Shown piece by piece: positions 908 through 25,607 of a stretch of 64,000 bases of DNA. The notes beneath the pieces were generated by a model. That model saw only the letters and a list, made by a program, of their open reading frames with translations, made no database searches and had not been told where the DNA came from. The stretch spans positions 88,856 through 152,855 of the forward strand of contig JAHDWA010000021.1 in the NCBI GenBank assembly GCA_023382535.1, given 5' to 3'. The stretch's first letter is position 1. Every line of letters starts with the position of its first letter. Source of the stretch: Anaerolineae bacterium. GTDB lineage: Bacteria > Chloroflexota > Anaerolineae > 4572-78 > J111. A program made the translations under genes and the position numbers.

Positions 908-1546
908 ATGAATAATCCAAAATCCAAAATCCAAAATCGAAAATGGAATGTTATTATCGCCGGGGTGGGCGGGCAGGGCGTTTTGCTTATCAGCGAACTG
1001 CTGGCCCGGGCGGCCATCGCTGCCGGCTGCGACGCCAAGCAAACGGAGATTCACGGCGTTTCGCAGCGAGGCGGCAGCGTTTACAGCCACGTTCGTTTTG
1101 GGACGCGGATCTATTCGCCGCTTATCACTCCCGGCGAAGCCGATGTTATTTTGGGATTGGAAAAACTGGAAGCGCTTCGCTTTGCCCCCTATCTAAAACC
1201 GGCCGGGCTGTGCCTCGTCAATGATTATGAAGTTATCCCTCGCTCCGCCGGCAGCGCCGCCAACCACTACCCCCACCAGGCGATTAAGTATCTCCAGGGC
1301 AAGGGCATCCGCGTTGTTGACCTACCGGCCACCAAACTGGCAACCGAACTCGACAATGTTCGCCTGACGAATACAGCCCTGCTCGGCGCGCTCAGTTTCT
1401 ATCTACCTCTGCCCGAACATATCTGGTTAGAGGTTTTTGAGCAGCGTATCCCGGCCCATGTTCTGACCATCAACCGGCGCAGCTTTGCCCTAGGACGAGA
1501 ACTGGCGGGGGAACATGAGAAATTGTCAGTCATCAGTGAACAGTGA
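908..1546 (+). CDS. iorB: Indolepyruvate ferredoxin oxidoreductase beta subunit
   Basis: About 212 residues. This is the gamma-type domain partner of IorA that completes the 2-oxoacid:ferredoxin oxidoreductase. The GVGGQGVLL nucleotide-binding-like motif begins at residue 17 and HGVSQRGGSV follows, both hallmarks of IorB/PorG-type subunits. ATG 908 is chosen over an upstream GTG at 863 because the latter would read through repeat DNA. Even so, residues 2-12 ([11 protein letters not shown]) are encoded by the ATCCAAA heptamer repeat, and the C-terminal LSVISEQ comes from the next repeat island. It is probably cotranscribed with iorA. Confidence 0.92.
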   Translation: MNNPKSKIQNRKWNVIIAGVGGQGVLLISELLARAAIAAGCDAKQTEIHGVSQRGGSVYSHVRFGTRIYSPLITPGEADVILGLEKLEALRFAPYLKPAGLCLVNDYEVIPRSAGSAANHYPHQAIKYLQGKGIRVVDLPATKLATELDNVRLTNTALLGALSFYLPLPEHIWLEVFEQRIPAHVLTINRRSFALGRELAGEHEKLSVISEQ

Positions 1547-1600
1547 ACAGGAACAGTAATCAGTGAACAGTTGGACTGATAACTGATGACTGATTACTGG
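1526..1600. repeat. Word-repeat hairpin island (CAGTAATCAGTGAACAG type)
   Basis: Tandem degenerate TCAGT/GAACAGT words are followed by complementary ACTGATAACTGATGACTG words, giving a long imperfect hairpin. The left half supplies the last codons and stop of iorB. A second island of the same word lies at 25530-25607. Confidence 0.75.
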
Positions 1601-1612
1601 AAAAGGTGCGAT

Positions 1613-2845
1613 ATGTCTGATTTAAAGGTCGAAGAGCTAATCTATGATTGGAATCGGATGGCCGAGCAGCGCGTTCACTTTCCCGCAAAAATTATGATTA
1701 CCGATGAAACGCTCCGCGATGGCCTGCAATCGCCTTCTATCACCCAGCCCGACCTGGAAGACAAGGTGAGCTTGCTCTTTCTCATGAATGATCTGGGCAT
1801 CGCCTGCGCCGATTTAGGGCTGCCGGGAGCGGGAGCACGTTTTAGGGATGAAGTAGCCATTATGGCCAAGGAGATTGCCAATCAACATTTGAACATCCAA
1901 CCCCAGGCGGCGGCGCGGACCTTGATTGCTGATATCGAGCCGATTGTCAGCGCCTCGCAGGAAGCGGGCATTGCCATCGAAGCCGCTCTCTTTGTCGGCT
2001 CCAGCCCCATTCGCCAATATGTGGAAGGCTGGACAATTGACCAACTCCGCCACCTGGTCGAAGAAGCAGTCGGCTTTGCCGTGAGTCACGGCCTGCCGGT
2101 GATGTTTGTGACTGAAGATACCACTCGGGCCAAACCGGAGGATTTACAGGCCCTTTACCAAACGGCCATAGAAGCCGGGGCGCACCGCATCTGCCTGGCC
2201 GATACCGTCGGTCACGCTATTCCGCACGGCGCTTATGCCCTGGTCAAGTTCATTAAAAAATTCGTGGATGAGCTAGGCGTCGAGGTGGGGATTGACTGGC
2301 ACGGCCACCGGGACCGGGGGCTGGATATCGCTAACTCGCTGGCCGCCTTAAGCGGAGGGGCTGACCGGGTTCACGCCTGCGCTTTGGGTGTGGGCGAGCG
2401 TTCGGGCAATACAGCCATGGAACTGCTGCTGGTCAATTTGCGCCTGCTGGGGCTGATTGACAACAACTTAACCAAGCTCAAAGATTACACCCAACTGGTG
2501 TCGGAATCTACCCGTACTCCCTTGCCTTACAACAAACCTATCGTTGGCCCTGATGCCTTCCGCACCGCCACCGGTGTCCACGCGGCGGCGGTAACCAAGG
2601 CCATGAAGCTGCGCGATGACTGGTTAAGCAACGTTGTCTACAGCGGAGTGCCGGCCGATATGGTGGGCCGTCGCCAGCGTATCGAGGTGGGGCCGATGAG
2701 CGGCTTGCACAATGTCCGCTTCTGGCTGGAACAAAACGGCCTGTGGGCTAGCGACCAATGCCAGCAAGAGATCTTGCAAGCGGCCAAACGCTCCAACCGC
2801 CTTTTGACCACTGAGGAGATTATGGAATTCATCCAACGATTTTAG
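1613..2845 (+). CDS. DRE-TIM metallolyase family protein (LeuA / HMG-CoA lyase-like)
   Basis: About 410 residues. It belongs to the family that makes or cleaves C-C bonds with acetyl-CoA (isopropylmalate, homocitrate and citramalate synthases; HMG-CoA lyase). Seen: DETLRDGLQSP near the N-terminus, DWHGHRDRGLD and GVGERSGN further on, and a GVHAAAVTKA segment. The HxHxD and GxGERxGN elements are synthase-like, but the first motif reads RDGLQ as in HMG-CoA lyase rather than RDGEQ as in LeuA. No C-terminal regulatory domain is present. ATG 1613 follows an AAAAGGTG site; an earlier ATG at 1586 would be repeat-encoded. Context with leuC, leuD and leuB favours a 2-oxo-acid chain-elongating synthase; substrate unknown. 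Confidence 0.8.
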   Translation: MSDLKVEELIYDWNRMAEQRVHFPAKIMITDETLRDGLQSPSITQPDLEDKVSLLFLMNDLGIACADLGLPGAGARFRDEVAIMAKEIANQHLNIQPQAAARTLIADIEPIVSASQEAGIAIEAALFVGSSPIRQYVEGWTIDQLRHLVEEAVGFAVSHGLPVMFVTEDTTRAKPEDLQALYQTAIEAGAHRICLADTVGHAIPHGAYALVKFIKKFVDELGVEVGIDWHGHRDRGLDIANSLAALSGGADRVHACALGVGERSGNTAMELLLVNLRLLGLIDNNLTKLKDYTQLVSESTRTPLPYNKPIVGPDAFRTATGVHAAAVTKAMKLRDDWLSNVVYSGVPADMVGRRQRIEVGPMSGLHNVRFWLEQNGLWASDQCQQEILQAAKRSNRLLTTEEIMEFIQRF

Positions 2846-2961
2846 ATTTTAGGTTTTGGATTTTGGATTTTTTATCATCCAAAATCAAAGGAGTAAGGTC
2901 AATGAATGGACAATCCAAAATCAGAAAGCAGAAATACCCAAAGGGCACGATGTCCAAAATC
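2842..2961. repeat. ATCCAAA heptamer island running into leuC
   Basis: TTTTAGATTTTAGG and GGATTTTGGATTTT words are followed by complementary ATCCAAAATCAAAG, then further ATCCAAA units and the longer module 2933-2961, which recurs at 9730-9758. The ribosome site and ATG of leuC sit in the middle, so the right part is translated. Confidence 0.8.
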
Positions 2962-4224
2962 GGCATGACATTGACCGAAAAAATCCTGGCCGCACACAGT
3001 GGCCGGGATGAGGTGCATGCCGGTGAATTTATTACGGCTAAAGTAGACCTGGTTTTTGCCAACGAATTATCGGGCATTGTCACCTTGCGCGTGCTGCGAG
3101 AATGGCAGGGCTTTGAGCGGGTGTTTGACCCCAGCAAGGTGATCTTCATTTTTGACCACTTTACCCCCAGCAAAGATATCTCTACGGCCATGATTGTCAA
3201 GGAGTTAAAAGCCGAGCTGGACTGCTACGGCGTCAAATATTATGAGTCGGGACGGAACGGCATCGAACACGTCATGCTGCCGGAGATGGGTTTCATTGCA
3301 CCGGGCGACTTGGTGATTGGCGGAGACTCCCATAGCTGCACGCACGGGGCGTTGGGCGCCTTTGCCACCGGCGTCGGCTCCTCCGATGTGGCCGCGGCTA
3401 TGGCCTTGGGGGAGGTTTGGCTTAAGGTTCCTCCAACCCTCAAACTGGTTTATCACGGCCAGCCGCCTCCATGGGTAGGCGGCAAGGATTTGATTCTGCA
3501 CACCCTCAACCGCATCAGCGTCTCGGGGGCGCTTTACCAGAGCATGGAGTTCAGCGGCGAGGCTATAGACGCCCTGACTATTTATGACCGGCTGACTATG
3601 GCTAACATGGCCATTGAGGGCGGCGGCAAAGCCGGTATTTTTGCCGCCGACGAGAAAACCCTTGATTTTGTGACCCGGCATGGAGGGCGGCCCGGCGTGG
3701 TCTACCAGAGCGACCCCGACGCCGAGTTCAGCCAGGTGATTGAGTTTGAGGTCAGCCGGCTTGAGCCGCAGGTAGCTTTCCCCTACTTGCCGGAAAACAG
3801 CCACCCGGTTTCCGAGGCAGGCGATATTCAAATTGACCAGGTGGTGATTGGCTTCTGTACCAACGGTTCGGTGCATGATTTGCGGCAGGCGGCGGAGGTG
3901 TTGCGGGGGCGCAAAATTCATCCCAGAACGCGGGCGGTGGTCATTCCCGGCTCGCAGCAGGTGTACAAGCAGGCGCTGAAAGAAGGGCTGATAGACATTT
4001 TTGCCGAGGCCGATTGCGCCGTCAGCACCCCCACCTGCGGCCCCTGCATCGGCGGGCATATGGGCGTACTGGCCGCTGGCGAGAGTTGTCTCTCCACCAG
4101 CAATCGCAACTTTGTGGGACGCATGGGCCATCCGGAAAGCAAAATCTACCTGGCCAACCCGGCAGTGGCTGCGGCGACGGCGGTTGCCGGGCACATTGTC
4201 AGCCCTCAAGAGGTCTTGAATTAG
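2902..4224 (+). CDS. leuC: 3-isopropylmalate dehydratase large subunit family (aconitase superfamily)
   Basis: About 440 residues. It is the catalytic [4Fe-4S] subunit that isomerises 2-alkylmalates to 3-alkylmalates. Seen: DSHSCTHGALGAFATGVGSSD, GFCTNGSVHDLRQAA, and CxxC in TCGPCIGGHMG, which carry the cluster ligands. AAAGGAG at 2887-2893 lies 8 bases before ATG 2902, so this is the chosen start. Residues 2-20 are then encoded by the repeat island, and the family-conserved part begins at MTLTEKILAAHSG. leuD follows 24 bases downstream. It could serve leucine synthesis, homoaconitase or a related chain-elongation route; the neighbours do not decide. Confidence 0.92.
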   Translation: MNGQSKIRKQKYPKGTMSKIGMTLTEKILAAHSGRDEVHAGEFITAKVDLVFANELSGIVTLRVLREWQGFERVFDPSKVIFIFDHFTPSKDISTAMIVKELKAELDCYGVKYYESGRNGIEHVMLPEMGFIAPGDLVIGGDSHSCTHGALGAFATGVGSSDVAAAMALGEVWLKVPPTLKLVYHGQPPPWVGGKDLILHTLNRISVSGALYQSMEFSGEAIDALTIYDRLTMANMAIEGGGKAGIFAADEKTLDFVTRHGGRPGVVYQSDPDAEFSQVIEFEVSRLEPQVAFPYLPENSHPVSEAGDIQIDQVVIGFCTNGSVHDLRQAAEVLRGRKIHPRTRAVVIPGSQQVYKQALKEGLIDIFAEADCAVSTPTCGPCIGGHMGVLAAGESCLSTSNRNFVGRMGHPESKIYLANPAVAAATAVAGHIVSPQEVLN

Positions 4225-4248
4225 TAAAGATGTAGCGAGGAACGGCTT

Positions 4249-4761
4249 ATGCGAATACAAGGCAAAGCCTGGAAATTTGGCAAAAATATTGACACCGACG
4301 CCATCATCCCTGCCCGGTACTGCAACACCGCCGACCCTGCCAGGTTGGCCCCTCACTGCCTGGAGGATGCCGACCCCACCTTTGTGAGCAAGATGTCGCC
4401 GGGTGATGTGGTGGTGGCCGATGAAAATTTTGGCTGTGGCAGCTCGCGGGAGGTTGCGCCGATTACCCTCAAGGCGGCGGGAGTGTCGGCGGTAGTGGCC
4501 AAGTCATTTGCCCGTATCTTCTTTCGCAACAGTATCAATATCGGCCTGCCTATCTTCGAGAGCGCGGCAGCAGTGGACGGCATCACCGAGGGCGACGAGA
4601 TCAGCATTGACCCGGCGGCAGGGATCCTGACCAATCATACCCAGGACGTAGCCTACCCCCTCGAACCCTTCCCCGAATTTTTACAGGAAATGATTCGACT
4701 AGGTGGCCTCCGCTACTGGGTAGAAAACAAGCTCAAAACCGCCTCCCAATCCAAAATCTAA
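4249..4761 (+). CDS. leuD: 3-isopropylmalate dehydratase small subunit family
   Basis: 170 residues, the swivelling aconitase domain partner of LeuC. Seen: GKNIDTDAIIPARY near the N-terminus, ENFGCGSSREVAP in the middle, and the C-terminal beta region. Length and motifs match the archaeal/bacterial short HacB/LeuD2 type, in which the loop after NIDTDAIIPARY helps set substrate specificity. The last residues (SQSKI) and the stop codon come from an ATCCAAA/ATCTAAA island. Confidence 0.92.
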   Translation: MRIQGKAWKFGKNIDTDAIIPARYCNTADPARLAPHCLEDADPTFVSKMSPGDVVVADENFGCGSSREVAPITLKAAGVSAVVAKSFARIFFRNSINIGLPIFESAAAVDGITEGDEISIDPAAGILTNHTQDVAYPLEPFPEFLQEMIRLGGLRYWVENKLKTASQSKI

Positions 4762-4772
4762 AATCTAAAATG
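4744..4772. repeat. ATCCAAA/ATCTAAA heptamer island
   Basis: Three heptamer units. The ATCTAAA variant provides the TAA stop of leuD and the island ends just before the next gene. Confidence 0.8.
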
Positions 4773-4780
4773 GAAATCCT

Positions 4781-5947
4781 ATGATCGCCTTTGAACTGAC
4801 CGAAGAACAGCACATGTTCCGCAACCTGGCCCGCCAGTTTGCCGAGGAAGTCATCCGGCCCGCTGCCCCGGAAGCTGATGAAAAAGAGGAAATCCCTTGG
4901 GAAGTCCTGCTTAAGGCGGCCCAGATGGGGCTGCTCAGCTACATGTACCCAGAGAAGTACGGCGGCGGGGGAGTCGAAAGCCTGCTGACCCGCTGCCTGG
5001 TTAAAGAGCAAATCTTCTGGGGCTGCGCCGGGGTTGGGACGACGGTTGGTGGGATTGACCTGGCTGCTACGCCCATTTTATTAGCCGGAACGGAGGAGCA
5101 AAAGGAGCGCGCCATTCGCCGCTTCTGCCAAAAGGACGAGGTGCCGCTGGGCGCGTTTGCCCTGACCGAGCCTGATTCCGGCTCTGACTCGGCGGCCATG
5201 CGCACGACAGCCAAACGCCAGGGGAGTTGTTACCTCCTTAACGGAACCAAAGCCTTCATCTCCAATGGCGGTATCGCCGATATTCACGTGGTCTTTGCCA
5301 TGACTAATCGTGAACAGGGAACGCACGGGATCAGCGCCTTTATTGTCGAGGGCGACCGGCCGGGCTTGTCAATGGGTAAAAAGGAAAAGAAGCTGGGTAT
5401 CCGCACCTCCCATACGGCCAGTATCATCCTGGAAAATGTGGAGGTGCCGCTTGAAAATCGCCTGGGGGAAGAAGGAGAGGGCTTCAAGATTGCCATGCAA
5501 ACCTTCGACTCCAGCCGGACGCTGATCGGCGCTGGAGCCGTCGGCGTGGCCCAGGCTGCCTATGAGTACGCTTATGCCTATGCCCAGGAGCGTGAGCAGT
5601 TTGGCCAGCCCATTGGTCGCTTCCAGTCCATTGCCTTTATGCTGGCCGATATGGCCACGGCCATTGAGGCCGCTCGTTTGTTGGTCTGGAAAGCGGCCTG
5701 GCTCTATGACCAGGGCCAGCCCTGCACCAAAGAGTCAAGCATGGCCAAAGCCTTTGCCGCCGATACGGCCGTGCGGGTGACCACCGACGCGGTGCAAATC
5801 CTGGGCGGCTACGGCTACATGCGTGACTTTCCGGTGGAAAAGTGGATGCGTGACGCCAAAATTATGCAAATCTATGAAGGCACAGCCCAAATTCAACGGC
5901 TCATCATCGCCCGGCAGTTGGAAAAGGAACGGCAGCGTAAAACGTGA
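4781..5947 (+). CDS. Acyl-CoA dehydrogenase
   Basis: 388 residues. An FAD flavoenzyme that introduces a 2,3 double bond into an acyl-CoA and passes electrons to ETF. Seen: ALTEPDSGSD (flavin contact), KAFISNGG, AYAQEREQFGQPI, the dimer-interface QILGGYGYMRD, and the catalytic-base motif MQIYEGTAQI, placing the catalytic Glu near residue 366. Length is normal for the family. It lies inside the leu-like cluster between leuD and the LeuB-type gene, which is unusual for leucine biosynthesis and argues for a CoA-thioester step after IorAB. Chain-length specificity cannot be read. Confidence 0.93.
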   Translation: MIAFELTEEQHMFRNLARQFAEEVIRPAAPEADEKEEIPWEVLLKAAQMGLLSYMYPEKYGGGGVESLLTRCLVKEQIFWGCAGVGTTVGGIDLAATPILLAGTEEQKERAIRRFCQKDEVPLGAFALTEPDSGSDSAAMRTTAKRQGSCYLLNGTKAFISNGGIADIHVVFAMTNREQGTHGISAFIVEGDRPGLSMGKKEKKLGIRTSHTASIILENVEVPLENRLGEEGEGFKIAMQTFDSSRTLIGAGAVGVAQAAYEYAYAYAQEREQFGQPIGRFQSIAFMLADMATAIEAARLLVWKAAWLYDQGQPCTKESSMAKAFAADTAVRVTTDAVQILGGYGYMRDFPVEKWMRDAKIMQIYEGTAQIQRLIIARQLEKERQRKT

Positions 5948-5999
5948 AACGTAACGCGGTAAAGCCACAAGTAAGAAATAAGAATTAAGAAACAAGCCG
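5941..5999. repeat. Degenerate tandem-word island (AAGAATTAAGAAAC type)
   Basis: The GTGAAACGTAACGCGG segment and then AAGTAAGAAATAAGAATTAAGAAACAAG words lie between the acyl-CoA dehydrogenase and leuB genes. It is a degenerate tandem run; no matching complementary half is obvious here. Confidence 0.5.
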
Positions 6000-6037
6000 T
6001 CCGCCTTTTTACCTCTTCCACAGCAAGGAGTGTTAAC

Positions 6038-7171
6038 GTGACAGACGTACAAATCCAAAATCTAAAATCCACGCCCAAAGGGGCAGTCCAAAATCGTTAC
6101 CGGTTTGGCGTGATTGGCGGCGACGGGATTGGCCCAGAGGTAGTCCGTGAGGGGCTGAAGGTGTTGAAAGCGGCGGCTGACGAGAGCTTTAGTTATGAAT
6201 TGATCGAATACCCTTACGGCAGCGAGCACTACCTGAAAACCGGCGAATTAGTGCCCGACTCGGCCATTGAGGAGTGGAAGACTCTGGACGCTGTTTACCT
6301 GGGAGCCATCGGCCACCCCGAGGTGGAACCGGGGCTGGTCGAACGGGCGGTGATTATGGGGCTGCGCTTTGGACTTGATTTATACGTCAACCTGCGCCCC
6401 ATCAAGCTCTACGCCGAGCATCTCTGCCCCTTGAAGGGCGTTCAACCGAAGGAGGTGGATATGGTGGTGGTCCGGGAGAACACCGAAGATGTGTACGCCC
6501 AAATTGGCGGCATTTTCAAAAAAGGCACACCCGACGAAGTCGCCCTGGTGAACGGCGTCTATACCCGCAAGGGTGTGGAGCGGGCAGTACGCTACGCCTT
6601 TGAACTGGCTCGCCAACGCGACAAGCAGCGTAAGGTTACGCTGGTGGACAAATCCAACGCCATCCGCCCCCAAGACCTGTGGGTCCGCGTCTTCAATGAA
6701 GTGGGCCAGGAGTACCCGGATATCGAACGGGACCATGCTTATGTAGATGCCGCTTGTATGTGGTTGGTCAAAAGCCCGCAGTGGTTCGACGTAATTGTAA
6801 CGCCCAATCTGTTTGGCGACATCATCACCGACTTGGGGGCGATGATTCAAGGCGGCCTGGGTATTGCTGCTTCGGGCAATATTCACCCTGGCCGGACCTC
6901 GATGTTTGAGCCAATACACGGCTCTGCGCCCAAATACGGCGGCAAGAACGTAGCCAGTCCTGTGGGAGCGATTGCCGCTGCTGCGATGATGCTCGATTTT
7001 CTGGGCGAAAAACAGGCCGCCTGCCGGATCGAACGAGCCATTGAATCACTGCTGGTCAGCCGGCGTATCCCCTCGCTGGACGCTCGCAGCGGCCTGGCTA
7101 CGGATCAAGTCGGCGATATGGTGGTAGCGGAAATGGAGCATCATCAGTATAGGAGGGAGGATATGAATTGA
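6038..7171 (+). CDS. leuB: Isopropylmalate/isocitrate dehydrogenase family (LeuB-type)
   Basis: 377 residues. NAD(P)-dependent oxidative decarboxylase of 3-alkylmalate-type hydroxy acids. Seen: [53 protein letters not shown], and the NAD-loop [20 protein letters not shown]. The start is GTG 6038, 8 bases after AAGGAG (6024-6029). Codons 5-20 (roughly [16 protein letters not shown]) are repeat-derived and precede the conserved domain. ENTEDVY is shared by LeuB, tartrate and homoisocitrate dehydrogenases, so exact substrate is open. It completes a LeuA/C/D/B-like set. Confidence 0.9.
6052..6097. repeat. Heptamer repeat inside the 5' end of leuB
   Basis: ATCCAAAATCTAAAATCC, then CCCAAAGGGGCAGTCCAAAA, a variant of the 2933-2961 module. 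It lies after the start codon and before the conserved domain, in frame and without a stop. Confidence 0.85.
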
Positions 7172-7195
7172 CCTACCTTAAAACAGGCCCAACTC

Positions 7196-7265
7196 CGGGC
7201 CGAAAATCAAAATCTAAAATTCAAAACTTGCCCTGAGCAAAGTCGAAGGGTCCAAAATCGAAAGG
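7196..7265. repeat. Heptamer island with CTGAGCAAAGTCGAAGGG module
   Basis: ATCAAAATCTAAAATTCAAAAC is followed by CCCTGAGCAAAGTCGAAGGG and TCCAAAATCG, immediately upstream of the ribosome site of livK. Confidence 0.7.
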
Positions 7266-7275
7266 GAGGTAGACG

Positions 7276-8544
7276 ATGAATCGAAGAGGATTTTTAGTCT
7301 TAGTTCTATTGACAGCTATAGCGTTGTTAATAACGGCCTGTGGCGGGGCAGCACCGCCGGCCGCTCAAGCTCCGGCCCAGGCTCCGGCTGCTACCGAAGC
7401 ACCCGTCGCTAATAAAGAAGCGGCGGGAGAGCCATATAAAATCGGTCTATTCTTTTCGGTAACAGGGCCGGCTTCGTCGTTGGGTGTCCCGGAGCGGGAC
7501 ACAGCCCAAATGGTTATCGAGCAGGTGAATGAAGCCGGCGGGATTAAGGGGCCGGACGGTAAGCTGCATCCCCTGGAGGGGATTTTTGAGGATGACCAGA
7601 GCAACCCTGACGAAGCGGTGCTGATTGTCAAGAAGTTCATTGAGCAGGAAAAAGTACCGATTATTGTGGGCGGTACGGGCAGCCCCGCCAGCATGGCGGT
7701 GATTGACACCGTAACTCAGGCTAAAGTGCCTTTCATCTCCAATGCTTCGGCCAGCGGGATTGTGGTACCGGTCGAGGAGCGGCAGTGGATTTTCAAGACG
7801 CCGCAGCAAAATCTGGTGGTGGCTCAGGTGCAGGGCGACTGGCTGACGGCCAACAAAGTCACCAAGATTGCTTCGTTGGGGGTGAACAACGCCTTTGGGG
7901 CCGATTCGATGGAGGCGCTGCGCGGGGTGGTTAAAGAGCTAGGTATTGAGATTGCCTACGAAGGTACGTTTGAACCAGGCGACACCGACTTTTCCGCCCA
8001 GTTGACCCAGGTAGCCGGTTCGGGGGCCGAGGCATTGATCGTGCATGCCACACCCGGCGAGGGTGCGCCGCTAACCGTACAATTCCGCGATTTGGGCCTG
8101 GAGATGCCGCTAGTTCACAATCACGGTATTGGCAACAAAGCTTTTATCGAGCTGGCCGGGGAGGCGGCTGAGGGTGTCCTCTTCCCGATTGGCAAGCTGC
8201 TGGTGGCTGAGGGCCTGCCTGACAGTGATCCGCAAAAGACGATGCTGGTGAAGTATATCGCCGCTTATAGCAAACACACAGGTGGAGGTGCGCCCAGCAC
8301 CTTTGGTGGGCATGCCTGGGACGCGATGCAGATGACTATTATGGCTCTGCAAGAGGTAGGGCCTGATCCGGCGGCCATTCGTGACTATTTGGAAGGTATT
8401 CATAACTTTGCCGGTATCTCCGGCGTCTTCAACCTGTCCTCAAAAGACCATAATGGTATCGGCAAGGAATCGCTGGTGATGGTTCAGATCAAAGACGGGG
8501 GTTGGGTCTATGTAACCCCGGAAAAGTACGCCAGCGCTCAGTAA
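7276..8544 (+). CDS. livK: Branched-chain amino acid-type ABC transporter, substrate-binding lipoprotein
   Basis: 422 residues. Exported periplasmic-binding protein of the LivJ/LivK (peripla_BP_6) family. The N-terminus has basic residues, a hydrophobic stretch and a lipobox LITAC with Cys22, then an Ala/Pro-rich linker and the domain opening KIGLFFSVTGPASSLG. The start is ATG 7276 behind AAAGGGAGG. It heads a livKHMGF operon. The family binds branched or aromatic amino acids, amides or aromatic acids; the adjoining CoA-ligase and benzoyl-CoA genes make an aromatic ligand possible (inference). Confidence 0.93.
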   Translation: MNRRGFLVLVLLTAIALLITACGGAAPPAAQAPAQAPAATEAPVANKEAAGEPYKIGLFFSVTGPASSLGVPERDTAQMVIEQVNEAGGIKGPDGKLHPLEGIFEDDQSNPDEAVLIVKKFIEQEKVPIIVGGTGSPASMAVIDTVTQAKVPFISNASASGIVVPVEERQWIFKTPQQNLVVAQVQGDWLTANKVTKIASLGVNNAFGADSMEALRGVVKELGIEIAYEGTFEPGDTDFSAQLTQVAGSGAEALIVHATPGEGAPLTVQFRDLGLEMPLVHNHGIGNKAFIELAGEAAEGVLFPIGKLLVAEGLPDSDPQKTMLVKYIAAYSKHTGGGAPSTFGGHAWDAMQMTIMALQEVGPDPAAIRDYLEGIHNFAGISGVFNLSSKDHNGIGKESLVMVQIKDGGWVYVTPEKYASAQ

Positions 8545-8573
8545 GCACAGCCTATCAATCGTCCTTAAAAATG

Positions 8574-8636
8574 TGTAGTGGCGACTTGAGTTGCTTGTGG
8601 TCCAAGAACGACTGAAGTCGTCACTATGAACCGTTA
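8574..8636. repeat. Hairpin island (AGTGGCGACTT / GACTGAAGTCGTCACTA)
   Basis: GTAGTGGCGACTTGAGTTGC on the left pairs imperfectly with AACGACTGAAGTCGTCACTA on the right, between livK and livH. An mRNA hairpin here could uncouple expression of the abundant binding protein from the permeases (inference). Confidence 0.65.
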
Positions 8637-8654
8637 TTAAAAAAGGGTATAGGT

Positions 8655-9584
8655 TTGACTCTCCAGGATCAACTCGTCCAATTTCTGGTTTCGGGCATTA
8701 CCCTCGGCAGTATTTATGCCCTGATTGCGCTGGGCTTTGTAACCATTTACAACGTTACCGGCATCATTAACTTTGCCCAGGGTGAGTTCGCCGTCTACGG
8801 GGCACTTATGGCCATCACCGTCTTCCAGAAAATCAGATTGTTGAGCGGCAACTTGCAGCTCGATCTGGGTTGGCCTTTGCCGGTAGCAGCCCTCTTTGGC
8901 GTAACTGTCGCTGTCGGGTTGGGCATGTTACTGTATTGGGTGGGCATCCAGCCAGCGCGCCGGGCCTCCATTCTCAGTCAAATTATCATTACCATTGGCG
9001 CTGCTTTTGTCTTTCGCGGCCTGGCTTTGCTGATTTGGGGTACTGATCCCTTCCGGCTGCCGGCTTTTACCCAGGGAGCACCCCTTAAACTTTTTGGGGC
9101 TATCCTTACTCTACAAGGGATATGGGTGATAGCAACAATCTTCCTGGTCCTGGCAATGCTTTATCTATTCTTTAACTATACACTCACCGGCAAAGCATTG
9201 CAGGCTTGCGCGGTTAACTCGACGGCAGCGCGGCTGATGGGAATTAACACCCGCCGCATGGCTCTGTTGGCGTTTGGCCTGAGCGCCGCTGTCACAGCCA
9301 TCGCTGGTATCGTGATTGCTCCGGCTACCTTTATGACTTACGACCGGGGGCTGATCCTCTCGCTTAAAGGATTTGTGGCCGCAATTATGGGCGGGATGTC
9401 CAGTCCGGTTGGCGCTGTTGTGGGTGGTCTGCTGTTGGGGATTCTGGAGTCGTTTAGCGCCGGATTGATTTCATCCGGCTATAAAGATGCAGTGGCCTTC
9501 TTTGTTCTTTTCATTGTTTTAGCCGTGCGTTTGGGCGGGCTGCTGCGGGGTCGGACAGTTACTTTTGAACAAGCTGGATTATAA
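8655..9584 (+). CDS. livH: Branched-chain amino acid ABC transporter permease LivH
   Basis: 309 residues, polytopic inner-membrane permease. Seen: QFLVSGITLGSIYALIALGF at the N-terminus, INFAQGEFAVYGA, and GFVAAIMGGMSSPVGAVVGG, all typical of LivH, with about eight hydrophobic segments. The start is taken as TTG 8655 (MTLQDQL) after AAAAAGGG; no better ATG precedes the first membrane helix. Confidence 0.93.
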   Translation: MTLQDQLVQFLVSGITLGSIYALIALGFVTIYNVTGIINFAQGEFAVYGALMAITVFQKIRLLSGNLQLDLGWPLPVAALFGVTVAVGLGMLLYWVGIQPARRASILSQIIITIGAAFVFRGLALLIWGTDPFRLPAFTQGAPLKLFGAILTLQGIWVIATIFLVLAMLYLFFNYTLTGKALQACAVNSTAARLMGINTRRMALLAFGLSAAVTAIAGIVIAPATFMTYDRGLILSLKGFVAAIMGGMSSPVGAVVGGLLLGILESFSAGLISSGYKDAVAFFVLFIVLAVRLGGLLRGRTVTFEQAGL

Positions 9585-9589
9585 GCAAA

Positions 9590-9758
9590 TTAATTGTGAA
9601 TTGCCCACAGGGGGCCTTCGGCTCTGAATGGTGAATTGTAAATGGTGAGTGAAAGAATAAGTACCTGATGGAAATCCGAAATCCACACCCGTTAGTCGGG
9701 CAATCCAAAATCCAAAATCTAAAATCTAAAATACCCAAAGGGCACGATGTCCAAAATC
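9590..9758. repeat. Composite repeat island entering livM
   Basis: GTGAATTG, GGTGAATTGTAAATGGTGAG words are followed by ATCCAAA heptamers and, at 9730-9758, the same 29-base module found at 2933-2961. The right half is translated as the N-terminus of LivM, in a different reading frame from the copy in leuC. Confidence 0.8.
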
Positions 9759-10741
9759 TGGCCGGTTTGGCCACGCTGGCGCTGGTCCTGGCCCTGCTGC
9801 CGCTCACCATTCAGAATAACTATATTCTGACGATTTTGATCTTTGTAGCCCAGTTCACCATCCTCACGATTGGCCTCTCCCTCTTGATGGGCTATGCCGG
9901 TCAGATTTCGCTGGGACAAGCGACATTTTTTGGGATTGGGGCTTATACCACGGCCATCCTGGCGACTCGTTTTCACGTTTCTCCCTGGCTGGCTTTTCTG
10001 GCGGGAGTTCTACTCTCAGCCGGAATAGCTTATCTCGTTGGCGGCTTAATCTTCCGGCTGCATGGTCATTACCTAGCCATGGCTACGTTGGGCATGAATA
10101 CCATTTTGTTTCTCACCCTAACTCAGGAGGTTGAGTGGACCGGCGGACCATCCGGTTTGCGGGGCATCCCCGACCTGAGCTTGGGGCCGTTGATGTTTGC
10201 CGGCGATACCTATTATTTTTACCTGTTCTGGTTTTTTGCCCTGCTGGTCATTGCCGCCTCGCTGAACATTGTCAACTCGCGGGTAGGACGGGCCATGCGG
10301 GCTTTACATGCCAGCCAGGTCGCCGCCGAAGCCTTGGGCATTGACACAAATGCCTTCAAGATCAAGGTATTTGTCCTCAGCGCCGCTTATGGTGGGTTGG
10401 CTGGAGGATTACATGCCGCCTATCTCGGTTTTATCAGTCCATCTTCTTTTGGCATCGGCGTTTCTATTGAACTGGTCGTCATGGCGGTGGTGGGCGGACT
10501 GGCCAGTGTGTGGGGGCCTCTCTTTGGGGCCAGTCTCGTCATGATGATTGAACAATACTTGCGGACGGCCGTGAAAGCCATTATCCCCAACGCTTCGGGT
10601 GAGCAAGAGATTATCGCGTTTGGTCTTATCTTGATGGTCATCATGATTTTCTTGCCTGAAGGACTGTTCACCGGTCTGGTCAAGGCCGGGCGAAGATGGT
10701 ATTTAAGACAATGGCTGCTCAGGCCGGTGCAGGATAGATGA
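9668..10741 (+). CDS. livM: Branched-chain amino acid ABC transporter permease LivM
   Basis: 357 residues. Second permease of the liv importer. Seen: GYAGQISLGQATFFGIGAY, HGHYLAMATLGMNTI, TGGPSGLRGIP, and the EAA-like RAMRALHASQVAAEALGI. The first 30 or so residues are polar and repeat-encoded, so the conserved protein effectively begins at LAGLATLALVL. ATG 9668 has only a weak ribosome site, and TTG at about 9764 is an alternative start. The stop overlaps the ATG of livG (ATGA). Confidence 0.92.
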   Translation: MEIRNPHPLVGQSKIQNLKSKIPKGHDVQNLAGLATLALVLALLPLTIQNNYILTILIFVAQFTILTIGLSLLMGYAGQISLGQATFFGIGAYTTAILATRFHVSPWLAFLAGVLLSAGIAYLVGGLIFRLHGHYLAMATLGMNTILFLTLTQEVEWTGGPSGLRGIPDLSLGPLMFAGDTYYFYLFWFFALLVIAASLNIVNSRVGRAMRALHASQVAAEALGIDTNAFKIKVFVLSAAYGGLAGGLHAAYLGFISPSSFGIGVSIELVVMAVVGGLASVWGPLFGASLVMMIEQYLRTAVKAIIPNASGEQEIIAFGLILMVIMIFLPEGLFTGLVKAGRRWYLRQWLLRPVQDR

Positions 10742-11589
10742 TCGAAAGCTTGCCGTCTACCAAGTCATCTAACCCACCGGATTTTGTCCCACCCTCAACT
10801 TTGCTCGAAGCCAGGCAGCTGTTCAAAAGCTTCGGGGGGCTGATGGCAGTCAATCAGGTAGATTTATCGGTCCGTTCCGGCGAAATTATGGCTTTGATTG
10901 GCCCTAATGGGGCCGGTAAGACGACCATGTTCAATCTTATCTCCGGCGTGCATCGCCCGGACAAAGGACAGGTCGTTTTTGAAGGTAAGTGTATTTCGGG
11001 TTTACCTATGCACGAAGTTGCGGCCATGGGGGTGGTGCGCACGTTTCAAAATCTACAAATTTTTGAGACCATGACTGTTCTGGAAAATGTAATGGTTGGC
11101 TGTCACCGGCAAGGCCGGGTCGGATTCTTGGCTGCTGCGCTGCGCTGGCCGGGGGTAGCCGCCGAAGAAACTCATTTGCAAGCGCGGGCGCTGGAGTATC
11201 TGGCTATGGTCGGGCTGACCCACCGGGCTGGAGATTCGGCTTCATCGTTATCCTACGGACAGCAACGCCTGGTTGAAATTGCCCGTGCTCTGGCCGCCAC
11301 CCCTAAACTGTTGCTGCTTGATGAGCCGGCCGCCGGGCTGACGCGGGTAGAAGCAGCAGCCCTCGACGTCTTGATCGGTCGTATCCGAGAGCGGGGCGTC
11401 GCCATTTTGCTGGTGGAGCATGACATGAACCTGGTCATGGGGTTGGCTGACCGGATTGTCGTATTACATTACGGGCAGAAAATCGCCGAAGGCACACCGG
11501 CTGAAGTGCAGTCCAGCCCGGAAGTAGTCCAGGCCTACTTGGGCGTAGATTGGCAGAAAACGATTTACGATTTTAGATTTACGATTTAA
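10738..11589 (+). CDS. livG: ABC transporter ATP-binding protein LivG
   Basis: 283 residues. ATPase of the liv importer. Walker A GPNGAGKT at residues 55-62, signature SYGQQRLVE, Walker [12 protein letters not shown], and H-loop [16 protein letters not shown] roughly 20-residue N-terminal extension precedes the usual start of the domain. The final residues (TIYDFRFTI) are encoded by an ACGATTTAGATTT repeat, which also provides the stop. Overlaps livM by 4 bases. Confidence 0.94.
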
Positions 11590-25125: not shown

Positions 25126-25536
25126 ATGATCCAACAACGTCCACTGCGGGTTCTGATTGGTAAACCGGGGCTGGATGGGCACGATAAAGGGGCCAAAGTG
25201 GTCGCTCATGCCCTGCGCGACGCCGGTTGTGAGGTTATCTACACCGGGCTGCACAAAACCATTGACCAAATTGTTGAAGCGGCCTTGCAGGAGGATGTGG
25301 ATATCATCGGGCTGTCCATGCTGTCAGGGGCGCACCTGGAGCTGACCGAGAAGCTGATACACCGTTTGCGGGAAGAGGGACTGCATGATGTAGTGGTGCT
25401 GGTCGGCGGCAACATCCCCCACCGAGACCGCCCTCGGCTGCTCGAATTAGGCGCGAGCGCGGTTTTTCCTACCGCTTCGCCGCTGGATGAGATTATCACG
25501 TTTGTGCAAAGTGTGGCATCTTTCAGTAATCAGTAA
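25126..25536 (+). CDS. Methylmalonyl-CoA mutase small subunit, cobalamin-binding
   Basis: 136 residues. Stand-alone B12-binding domain: KPGLDGHDKGAK carries the DxHxxG motif with His19 as the cobalt ligand, followed by GLSMLSGAH and VGGNIP. AAGGAG lies 6-7 bases before ATG 25126. A TTG at 25087 is rejected because it lies in repeat-flanking DNA. The last residues (SFSNQ) are repeat-encoded. It pairs with the following large subunit, as in archaeal-type split mutases. Confidence 0.93.
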   Translation: MIQQRPLRVLIGKPGLDGHDKGAKVVAHALRDAGCEVIYTGLHKTIDQIVEAALQEDVDIIGLSMLSGAHLELTEKLIHRLREEGLHDVVVLVGGNIPHRDRPRLLELGASAVFPTASPLDEIITFVQSVASFSNQ

Positions 25537-25607
25537 CCAGTAATCAGTAGTCAGACTGGTTACTGGTTACTGATCGCTGGTCAATGGTTACTGATCACTG
25601 GTATTCG
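25530..25607. repeat. Word-repeat hairpin island (AGTAATCAGTAACC / GGTTACTGGTTACTG)
   Basis: Degenerate CAGTAACCAGTAATCAGTAG words are followed by their complements (GGTTACTGGTTACTGATC). It supplies the stop codon of the B12 subunit gene and sits between the two mutase genes. Confidence 0.8.

Follow-up and report, generated by a model that had tools for sequence, protein, structure and literature searches.

Heptamer repeat arrays dispersed through a Chloroflexota lineage and carried in frame by protein-coding genes

The DNA examined here, which we call the window, is a stretch of 64,000 nt (57% G+C) from contig JAHDWA010000021.1 of an Anaerolineae bacterium (Chloroflexota), in which tandem arrays of the heptamer ATCCAAA and related units run into the starts of four genes, iorB, leuC, leuB and livM. 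A preliminary description of this stretch had proposed that at all four genes the start codon lies upstream of the repeat and the conserved domain downstream of it, with 10–30 repeat-encoded residues at each N-terminus, and that a stop-free unit of seven nucleotides could enter coding ends in any frame. We compared these N-terminal tags with relative genomes (labelled G, L or P), in which such arrays also lie inside conserved enzymes. Coordinates are those of the window, on the + strand.

Results

The tag of iorB (908..943) consists of an ATG at 908, with AAGG 10 nt upstream, and a repeat-encoded N-terminus of 11 residues (array 914-944); these 12 residues are followed by WNVIIAGVGGQG, and the next in-frame start codon is a GTG within the GVGGQG loop, with none usable earlier. 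Likewise, the GTG of leuB at 6038, behind an AAGGAG ribosome site, opens a repeat-encoded stretch of 18 residues (6038..6094); the only further GTG lies in the first strand, and no ATG, GTG or TTG occurs between tag and fold. The starts of leuC and livM are ambiguous. The first start codon of leuC, ATG 2902 behind AAGGAG, leads into the repeat-encoded NGQSKIRKQKYPKGTMSKI (2902..2961), and later in-frame ATGs are present at 2950, within the repeat and behind AAAGGG, and at 2965 (MTLTEKIL). In livM no ribosome site is visible ahead of the first possible start, ATG 9668, which begins the repeat-encoded N-end EIRNPHPLVGQSKIQNLKSKIPKGHDVQN (9668..9757), with an in-frame TTG alternative at 9767. The tags measure about 11 (iorB), 19 (leuC), 18 (leuB) and 29 (livM) residues, and the Pfam domains begin at residues 21 (iorB, POR), 26 (leuC), 25 (leuB) and 53 (livM). 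The proposed order of start, repeat and domain thus stands for iorB and leuB, and is ambiguous for the two genes with later starts. A simple script gene caller picked all four tag-bearing starts; the same caller misplaced some others (livK, livG).

The window leuB shares 73% identity with the leuB of L001, a Chloroflexi metagenome-assembled genome, and 82%, over a partial gene, with that of L079, whose 6.1-Mb genome (G001) is the nearest to the window by leuB and served for the census below. L079 has the gene order of the window, and its leuB and leuC start tagless with LNNYKIGVIGG and MGMTITEKIL, as had been predicted of relatives with the domain directly after the start; the N-end of its IorB is VINNPKSEIQNPKSVILAGVGG. 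Among the best 120 IorB homologs listed, motif matching identified an ATCCAAA-like N-end in 6, at 66–99% identity and in frame, which supports the original proposal that repeat DNA has entered reading frames. All 6 fall among the 10 nearest homologs; all 120 have a GVGGQG-type motif, preceded in 81 of them by 9-11 residues. The two nearest homologs, P0241 (99% identical, with a Q to E change within the tag) and P0242 (82%), have N-ends equal in length to that of the window protein. In a structure model of IorB the predicted local distance difference test score (pLDDT) averages 53 over residues 1-10 and 88.6 over the whole protein, and the first strand starts at residue 13, so the tag precedes the modelled fold.

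If the repeats were 5′ untranslated DNA, translation would begin downstream and the tags would never be made. The later in-frame ATGs of leuC, at 2950 and, where the sequence matches the start region of L079, at 2965, would fit such an arrangement, as would TTG 9767 of livM and the want of a visible ribosome site at 9668. It is nevertheless very unlikely, given that iorB and leuB offer no start codon between tag and conserved fold, that relatives carry the iorB tag in frame, and that elsewhere arrays occupy the interior of reading frames of conserved proteins.

In a period scan of the window, 11 arrays had period 7 and 4 had period 14, and periods 4-6, 8-13 and 15 were unrepresented; Markov controls (three, then one more) contained no arrays. 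Run at the lowest score setting, Tandem Repeats Finder returned 47 rows, 23 of them at period 7. ATCCAAA occurs 17 times on the + strand and 5 times on the − strand, and the unit types comprise ATCCAAA together with ATCTAAA, GATTTAC-like and TCAGTAA-like units, and ACTGATA, a rotation of the published TAACTGA. As the preliminary description had stated, neither strand of ATCCAAA encodes a stop (KSKIQNP / FGFWILD); its common variant ATCTAAA, unremarked there, contains TAA. The 15 clusters in the window divide into 4 at N-ends, 5 at C-ends, none in gene interiors and 6 in intergenic DNA.

The G001 sample consisted of 60 contigs (537 kb), 55 chosen for containing the repeat (35 for arrays of at least 18 or at least 24 bp, 20 solely for an 11-mer) and 5 not. 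The pattern AATCCAAAATC occurs 684 times in G001 (3 times for the reversed pattern), 232 times in G003 and at most 22 times in each of 18 other genomes searched. The sample yielded 189 period-7 arrays vs 33 at period 8, with 0 in the control, and period 7 is dominant in the window, G001 and G003 alike. The G001 arrays fall into 47 unit families, of which AAAATCC accounts for 69/189. Counted per gene overlapped, the 117 ATCCAAA-family clusters are 58 interior, 15 N-end, 2 C-end and 42 intergenic, so that 75/117 overlap coding DNA on contigs mostly picked for the repeat; sense and antisense copies number 54 and 4 in interiors, 14 and 1 at N-ends, and 2 and 0 at C-ends. With 58 of the 75 coding clusters interior, and C-ends as well as N-ends occupied in the window, the initial emphasis on start codons proves too narrow. 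Among interior arrays of any unit, the sense unit is stop-free in 25/25 in G025, 9/10 in G028 and 10/10 in G030, on stretches that, like those of G027, were picked around arrays. The assemblies of G025 and G030 include megabase contigs, and a short-read assembly artefact is therefore unlikely.

N-ends hold about 2.6-fold more G001 clusters than expected (15/75 coding clusters vs 7.7% of coding bases in the first 90 bp, p=5e-4). Such an excess would be expected if N-terminal tags were kept for a benefit to translation, the ribosome site being freed when the sequence that follows the start codon is A-rich and unstructured. The predicted structure of the start region is weaker with the tag than without it in all four genes of the window (-2.3 vs -16.2, -6.1 vs -15.9, -7.7 vs -17.4 and -8.4 vs -13.3 kcal/mol, the cuts that removed the tags not being frame-exact for iorB and leuB); among 56 called starts iorB is the least structured and leuC the 9th, and the iorB tag is kept down to 66% identity. 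However, leuB and livM rank only 19th and 23rd with their tags, the leuB and leuC of L079 begin tagless, any A-rich stretch would have the same effect, and the interior arrays, the majority of coding arrays in G001, lie outside its reach. We therefore regard a translation benefit as rather unlikely to be what keeps the tags. Separately, a pattern of Shine-Dalgarno site, ATG and repeat, considered as a sign of start-codon targeting, had 6 matches in G001 and G003, near chance by a rough estimate, and was not used.

The interior arrays lie in conserved enzymes. CarA (L119, G001) has NPKSKIQNPKW in the linker preceding its glutaminase domain, and in an IleRS-like synthetase (L167) the array sits directly ahead of the anticodon domain, both positions lying between domains. 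In UvrC (L185), 170 residues span an RNase H profile of 159 positions and the array forms a gap against a solved UvrC, and CopA (L124) has 13 additional residues after DKTGT relative to a solved structure. Arrays fall within Pfam domains of UvrC and CopA and also of RsmA (L161), HemD (L186) and a protein kinase (L120), whereas sarcosine oxidase alpha (L112) carries two arrays and LysA of G003 (L131) two inserts made from other heptamers. The IleRS-like synthetases of G001 (L167) and G028 (L274) have heptamer inserts at one common place; some sites have therefore been hit more than once. Beside these, CarA L119 has a second odd insert, TPPLFPPLSGGGQGG, which looks repeat-encoded as well; LSEVE occurs in IorB P0251, and SEVEG or SQVEG in CarA P0016 and P0028.

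The reading frame was examined for period-7 arrays of any heptamer in the G001 contigs and the G025, G028 and G030 stretches, at two thresholds, requiring that both 180-bp flanks, each judged separately, be coding on one strand. At the looser threshold the 291 arrays comprise 8 too near an edge, 202 not qualifying and 81 tested, of which 78 keep one open frame throughout (p=2e-33 vs 1/3); at the stricter threshold 46/47 are in frame and open. This points to strong selection. It also qualifies the idea of free entry in any frame: stops are indeed avoided, but the downstream frame must still be kept. In addition, the frame test bears on whether these are contingency (phase-variation) repeats, in which a change in length shifts the frame and toggles the gene. 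A length of seven is indivisible by three, and contingency repeats are commonly sited at N-ends (the available text of PMC4692102, citing Lin and Kussell); yet with nearly all arrays in frame, housekeeping enzymes (CarA, RsmA, LysA) among the hosts, and the N-end length of the window protein kept in the two nearest IorB homologs, phase variation is extremely improbable.

Orientation is constrained as well. The KSKIQNP strand is used in 70/75 coding clusters of G001 (p=1e-15), although ATCCAAA is open on both strands; openness of both strands, offered earlier as the enabling property, is thus insufficient, the FGFWILD orientation being rare in proteins (5/75). Intergenic arrays of G001 between co-directional genes lie 19 on the same strand and 14 on the opposite one, without clear bias, and most antisense copies, judged by eye, lie in hydrophobic stretches; on the strength of the intergenic split and these antisense copies we reject an insertion preference for the transcribed strand. 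The variant with a stop, ATCTAAA, is depleted in coding DNA, making up 14/241 of the C/T units in sense coding arrays vs 19/89 in non-coding ones (p=1e-4). The natural reading is that arrays land in either orientation and that the protein decides which persist. As far as sequence can tell, selection at the protein level is visible on frame, polarity, stops and site.

The unit at a given site changes between relatives. In the same linker the best 120 CarA homologs carry NPKSKIQNPKW, NRKSEIVNRKSY, IRHSSFVTHHSY, NLQSPISNLQS, ENTYHVSRITH and others, 26 of the 120 being labelled ATCCAAA-type by motif; the labels are rough regular expressions, and the class "ACGTxxx-type" is certainly mixed. On a tree of 116 CarA proteins built with the linker columns excluded, the ATCCAAA-type label changes at least 16 times, 5 of these changes forced by starred branches; the mean for shuffled labels is 23.0, so that the label is also clustered, and the tree is silent as to gain versus loss. 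The near sisters P0077 and P0070 have different units of equal length (AINRKSEIVNRKSY, AVIRHSSFVTHHSY), and the loop of RsmA is similarly varied. At the DNA level, where a script read 17/30 CarA loci and the motif missed the other 13, the linker has a period-7 score of 12-24 in 5/7 of the nearest loci (at least 70% identity; the remaining two score 3 and 4) and of 2-4 in 10 more distant ones; high-scoring stretches also occur elsewhere in two of the nearest genes (L198, 15; L203, 14). The CarA unit fits the genome pool in two genomes: in G025, where CarA is built on CGTATCA, the pattern of two such units, CGTATCACGTATCACG, has 29 occurrences, and in G001, where CarA has ATCCAAA, the count of that pattern is 0. 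Presence and dispersal of the arrays, selection on frame and orientation, and change of unit at fixed sites are, in this way, apparent from the genomes compared. Apart from this, G024:C47:8009-9196 is a CarA match with one internal TGA, perhaps a frameshift or a broken gene.

Perfect ATCCAAA arrays in G001 span 11-47 bp. Perfect coding arrays cluster at 31-36 bp, and among the 20 contigs picked by the 11-mer only, 9/25 coding and 1/29 non-coding arrays reach 31 bp. A fixed 33-bp element is a possible reading, tempered by the choice of 35 contigs for long arrays and by a 5′ phase that is regular in coding arrays only: long arrays start with AATCC in 32/52 coding and 1/7 non-coding cases, and end in phase AATC in 31/52 and 6/7. 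Other period-7 arrays within 60 bp of the 59 long ATCCAAA arrays lie 5′ in 17/59 and 3′ in 1/59 (p=1.4e-4), a 5′ stacking that is inseparable from gene direction, as coding arrays are nearly all sense; non-coding arrays alone give 2 to 0. The neighbouring period-7 arrays of G001 look as if they had been stacked in one direction.

An 18-bp piece, ACCCAAAGGGCACGATGT, lies inside the leuC tag (2936..2953), and a second exact copy inside the livM tag (9733..9750). Outside the window, exact copies number 4 in G030 and 1 in G025 (L295-L299); all 7/7 are flanked by AT and C and lie within or next to heptamer-like arrays whose units differ, and 18 is a multiple of three. PKGHDV, matching this piece, occurs in the CarA linker of P0021, and PTGHDV in the CarA of P0007.

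With one unit present at hundreds of sites, copying is needed, not local slippage alone. For short repeats, the explanation assumed by default in the literature is slippage (PMC4679880, in the text available, citing Mrazek 2007); here it would act locally during replication, with 7 bp for each polymerase footprint, and without dispersal. It is favoured by the 47 unit families of G001 and by the CarA unit of G027, which is not the commonest of three units counted there. Against it stand the large share of AAAATCC in the G001 sample, the fit of the CarA unit to the genome pool in G001 and G025, and the phased 3′ ends of coding and non-coding arrays, and we judge it unlikely. The phased ends, the neighbours on the 5′ side and the 18-bp piece bear on the mechanism, for which we infer a directional process of addition or insertion.

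Further arrays in the window lie at gene ends and between genes. A CAGTGAA-type array overlaps the 3′ end of iorB (1526..1571, SVISEQ*). It is followed by the ACTGATA array (1575..1599), 13 nt upstream of the called ATG 1613 of the next gene, a placement that resembles the one described for Beggiatoaceae. At the 3′ end of an HMGL-like gene an array in reverse orientation (2838..2871, GATTTTA) includes the TAG stop of the gene, while the array at 4748..4771 supplies the C-end QSKI of leuD, an ATCTAAA variant giving its TAA stop (4759-4761). Between genes, the array at 7203..7260 encloses a GC-rich hairpin piece and terminates in TCCAAAATCG directly before the ribosome site of livK; a reverse-orientation repeat forms the C-end of livG (11569..11579, IYDFRFTI*), and a TCAGTAA array overlaps the 3′ end of a gene at 25523..25554. 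Short GC-rich hairpin pieces, CCCTGAGCAAAGTCGAAGGG, CCCGTTAGTCGGG and GCCCAAAGGGGC, lie inside arrays at 7231-7250, 9688-9700 and 6073-6084, each with an ATCCAAA-type unit within a few nt after it.

Discussion

We consider it probable, at roughly 0.8, that heptamer arrays have dispersed lineage-wide and that the protein has acted as the filter, on frame, stops, polarity and tolerance of the site. In this Chloroflexota lineage, arrays built on a variety of heptamers, with ATCCAAA and its relatives predominating here, would be copied to many chromosomal places by a copy-and-insert process, and the copies borne by genes would persist where the protein tolerates them, that is, in frame, without stops and mostly in the polar Lys/Ser/Asn/Gln/Pro orientation, at N- or C-ends, in interdomain linkers and in loops. 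From sequence comparison, the repeats are probably translated as tolerated linkers. The tags of iorB and leuB, and probably of leuC and livM, would represent the N-terminal class of surviving copies, made as short disordered extensions that are presumably, for the most part, neutral for the enzyme. The interpretation of repeat entry given in the preliminary description is thus partly supported.

Several observations weigh against this reading or limit its scope. Since 55/60 of the G001 contigs were chosen by the repeat, densities from them are not genome-wide rates, and the genes of that sample were called by the simple script caller. Three of the 81 frame-tested arrays fail (2 off frame, 1 meeting a stop), the five antisense coding clusters of G001 run counter to polarity, and G027 has no interior case among 9 arrays in 6 stretches. 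The CarA linker of G027 is AATCGAAA-like (8 matches of the unit's pattern), though CGTATCACGTATCACG is commoner in that genome (26). The tags also reduce predicted RNA structure at the start, which bears on their neutrality, and an enzyme for copying or mobility did not turn up, no search having been aimed at one.

The polar, unit-swapping pattern hints at templated addition. One such process, template-directed writing of 7-nt units in one direction at chromosomal breaks (telomerase-like, or by reverse-transcriptase gap filling), is an improbable proposition. Were it true, with templates specific to species, the unit at one loop would differ between relatives, newer arrays would lie 3′ of older ones with 3′ ends in phase, and proteins would carry the scars as linkers.

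Heptanucleotide repeats of cyanobacteria, the short tandemly repeated repetitive (STRR) sequences, were reportedly described by Mazel in 1990. By unit and dispersal, the present arrays belong with the dispersed bacterial heptanucleotide repeats of this kind, also termed long simple sequence repeats (LSSR): the tandem unit is exactly 7 bp and one unit occupies many sites. They are not mainly intergenic, with the coding majority given above; as the kind is defined by its unit, we treat them as a variant of it. The closest precedents are the Rickettsia palindromic elements, the TAACTGA repeats and the cyanobacterial heptanucleotide repeats, which we compare through those portions of the cited sources that were available to us. 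Rickettsia palindromic elements (Ogata et al.) lie in frame inside conserved proteins according to a review (PMC2229807), and share with the present arrays the occurrence of repeat DNA both between genes and in frame within conserved protein genes, apparently tolerated. They are, however, palindromes of 105-146 bp with inverted ends, whereas the arrays described here are direct repeats, the perfect ones 11-47 bp long, without a palindrome bounded by terminal inverted repeats, small hairpins being present in some window arrays.

The TAACTGA repeats of Beggiatoaceae and cyanobacteria (MacGregor, PMC4679880) are likewise heptamer arrays near gene starts, and some lie within open reading frames, mostly at protein ends, which were argued to survive insertion best. 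In the accessible part of that account they are mostly upstream of starts, with 11 open reading frames that carry the open orientation. In the window the main unit is ATCCAAA, with one array of a TAACTGA rotation, and the arrays are not mostly just upstream of starts; unlike the TAACTGA repeats, moreover, those described here occupy interior sites by the dozen, often in conserved proteins, with several units and a change of unit at one site. Cyanobacterial STRR sequences are similar as dispersed heptanucleotide arrays, and the text of PMC4692102 open to us does not present them as inserts common in proteins. In the same source, the GGGAATC/GGGGATT heptamers of Xanthomonas and Nostoc form arrays genome-wide, mostly of four units, but are G-rich, quadruplex-forming and under-represented in coding DNA, whereas many long coding arrays are found here. 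A survey of short-repeat satellites in prokaryotes (PMC6749651) lists Chloroflexus aurantiacus as satellite-rich and mentions heptamer-derived families; its coding units are multiples of three, and heptamer insertion in proteins is not described in the portion available. In the literature searched, from which subscription journals were mostly absent, we found no account of heptamer arrays inserted widely in protein interiors. The present analysis adds how many interior sites are occupied, including some in essential enzymes, that a unit lacking stops on either strand is used mainly in sense, and that units are exchanged at a single loop.

Taken together, these arrays indicate that a simple tandem repeat, itself no recognised transposon, supplies protein inserts throughout a lineage, in essential genes too. 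N-ends of this kind should not be trimmed as annotation errors. The inserts provide natural experiments on where enzymes accept about 11 additional residues, and the long-standing problem of the spread of heptanucleotide arrays becomes testable, since sister species carry different units in a single loop.

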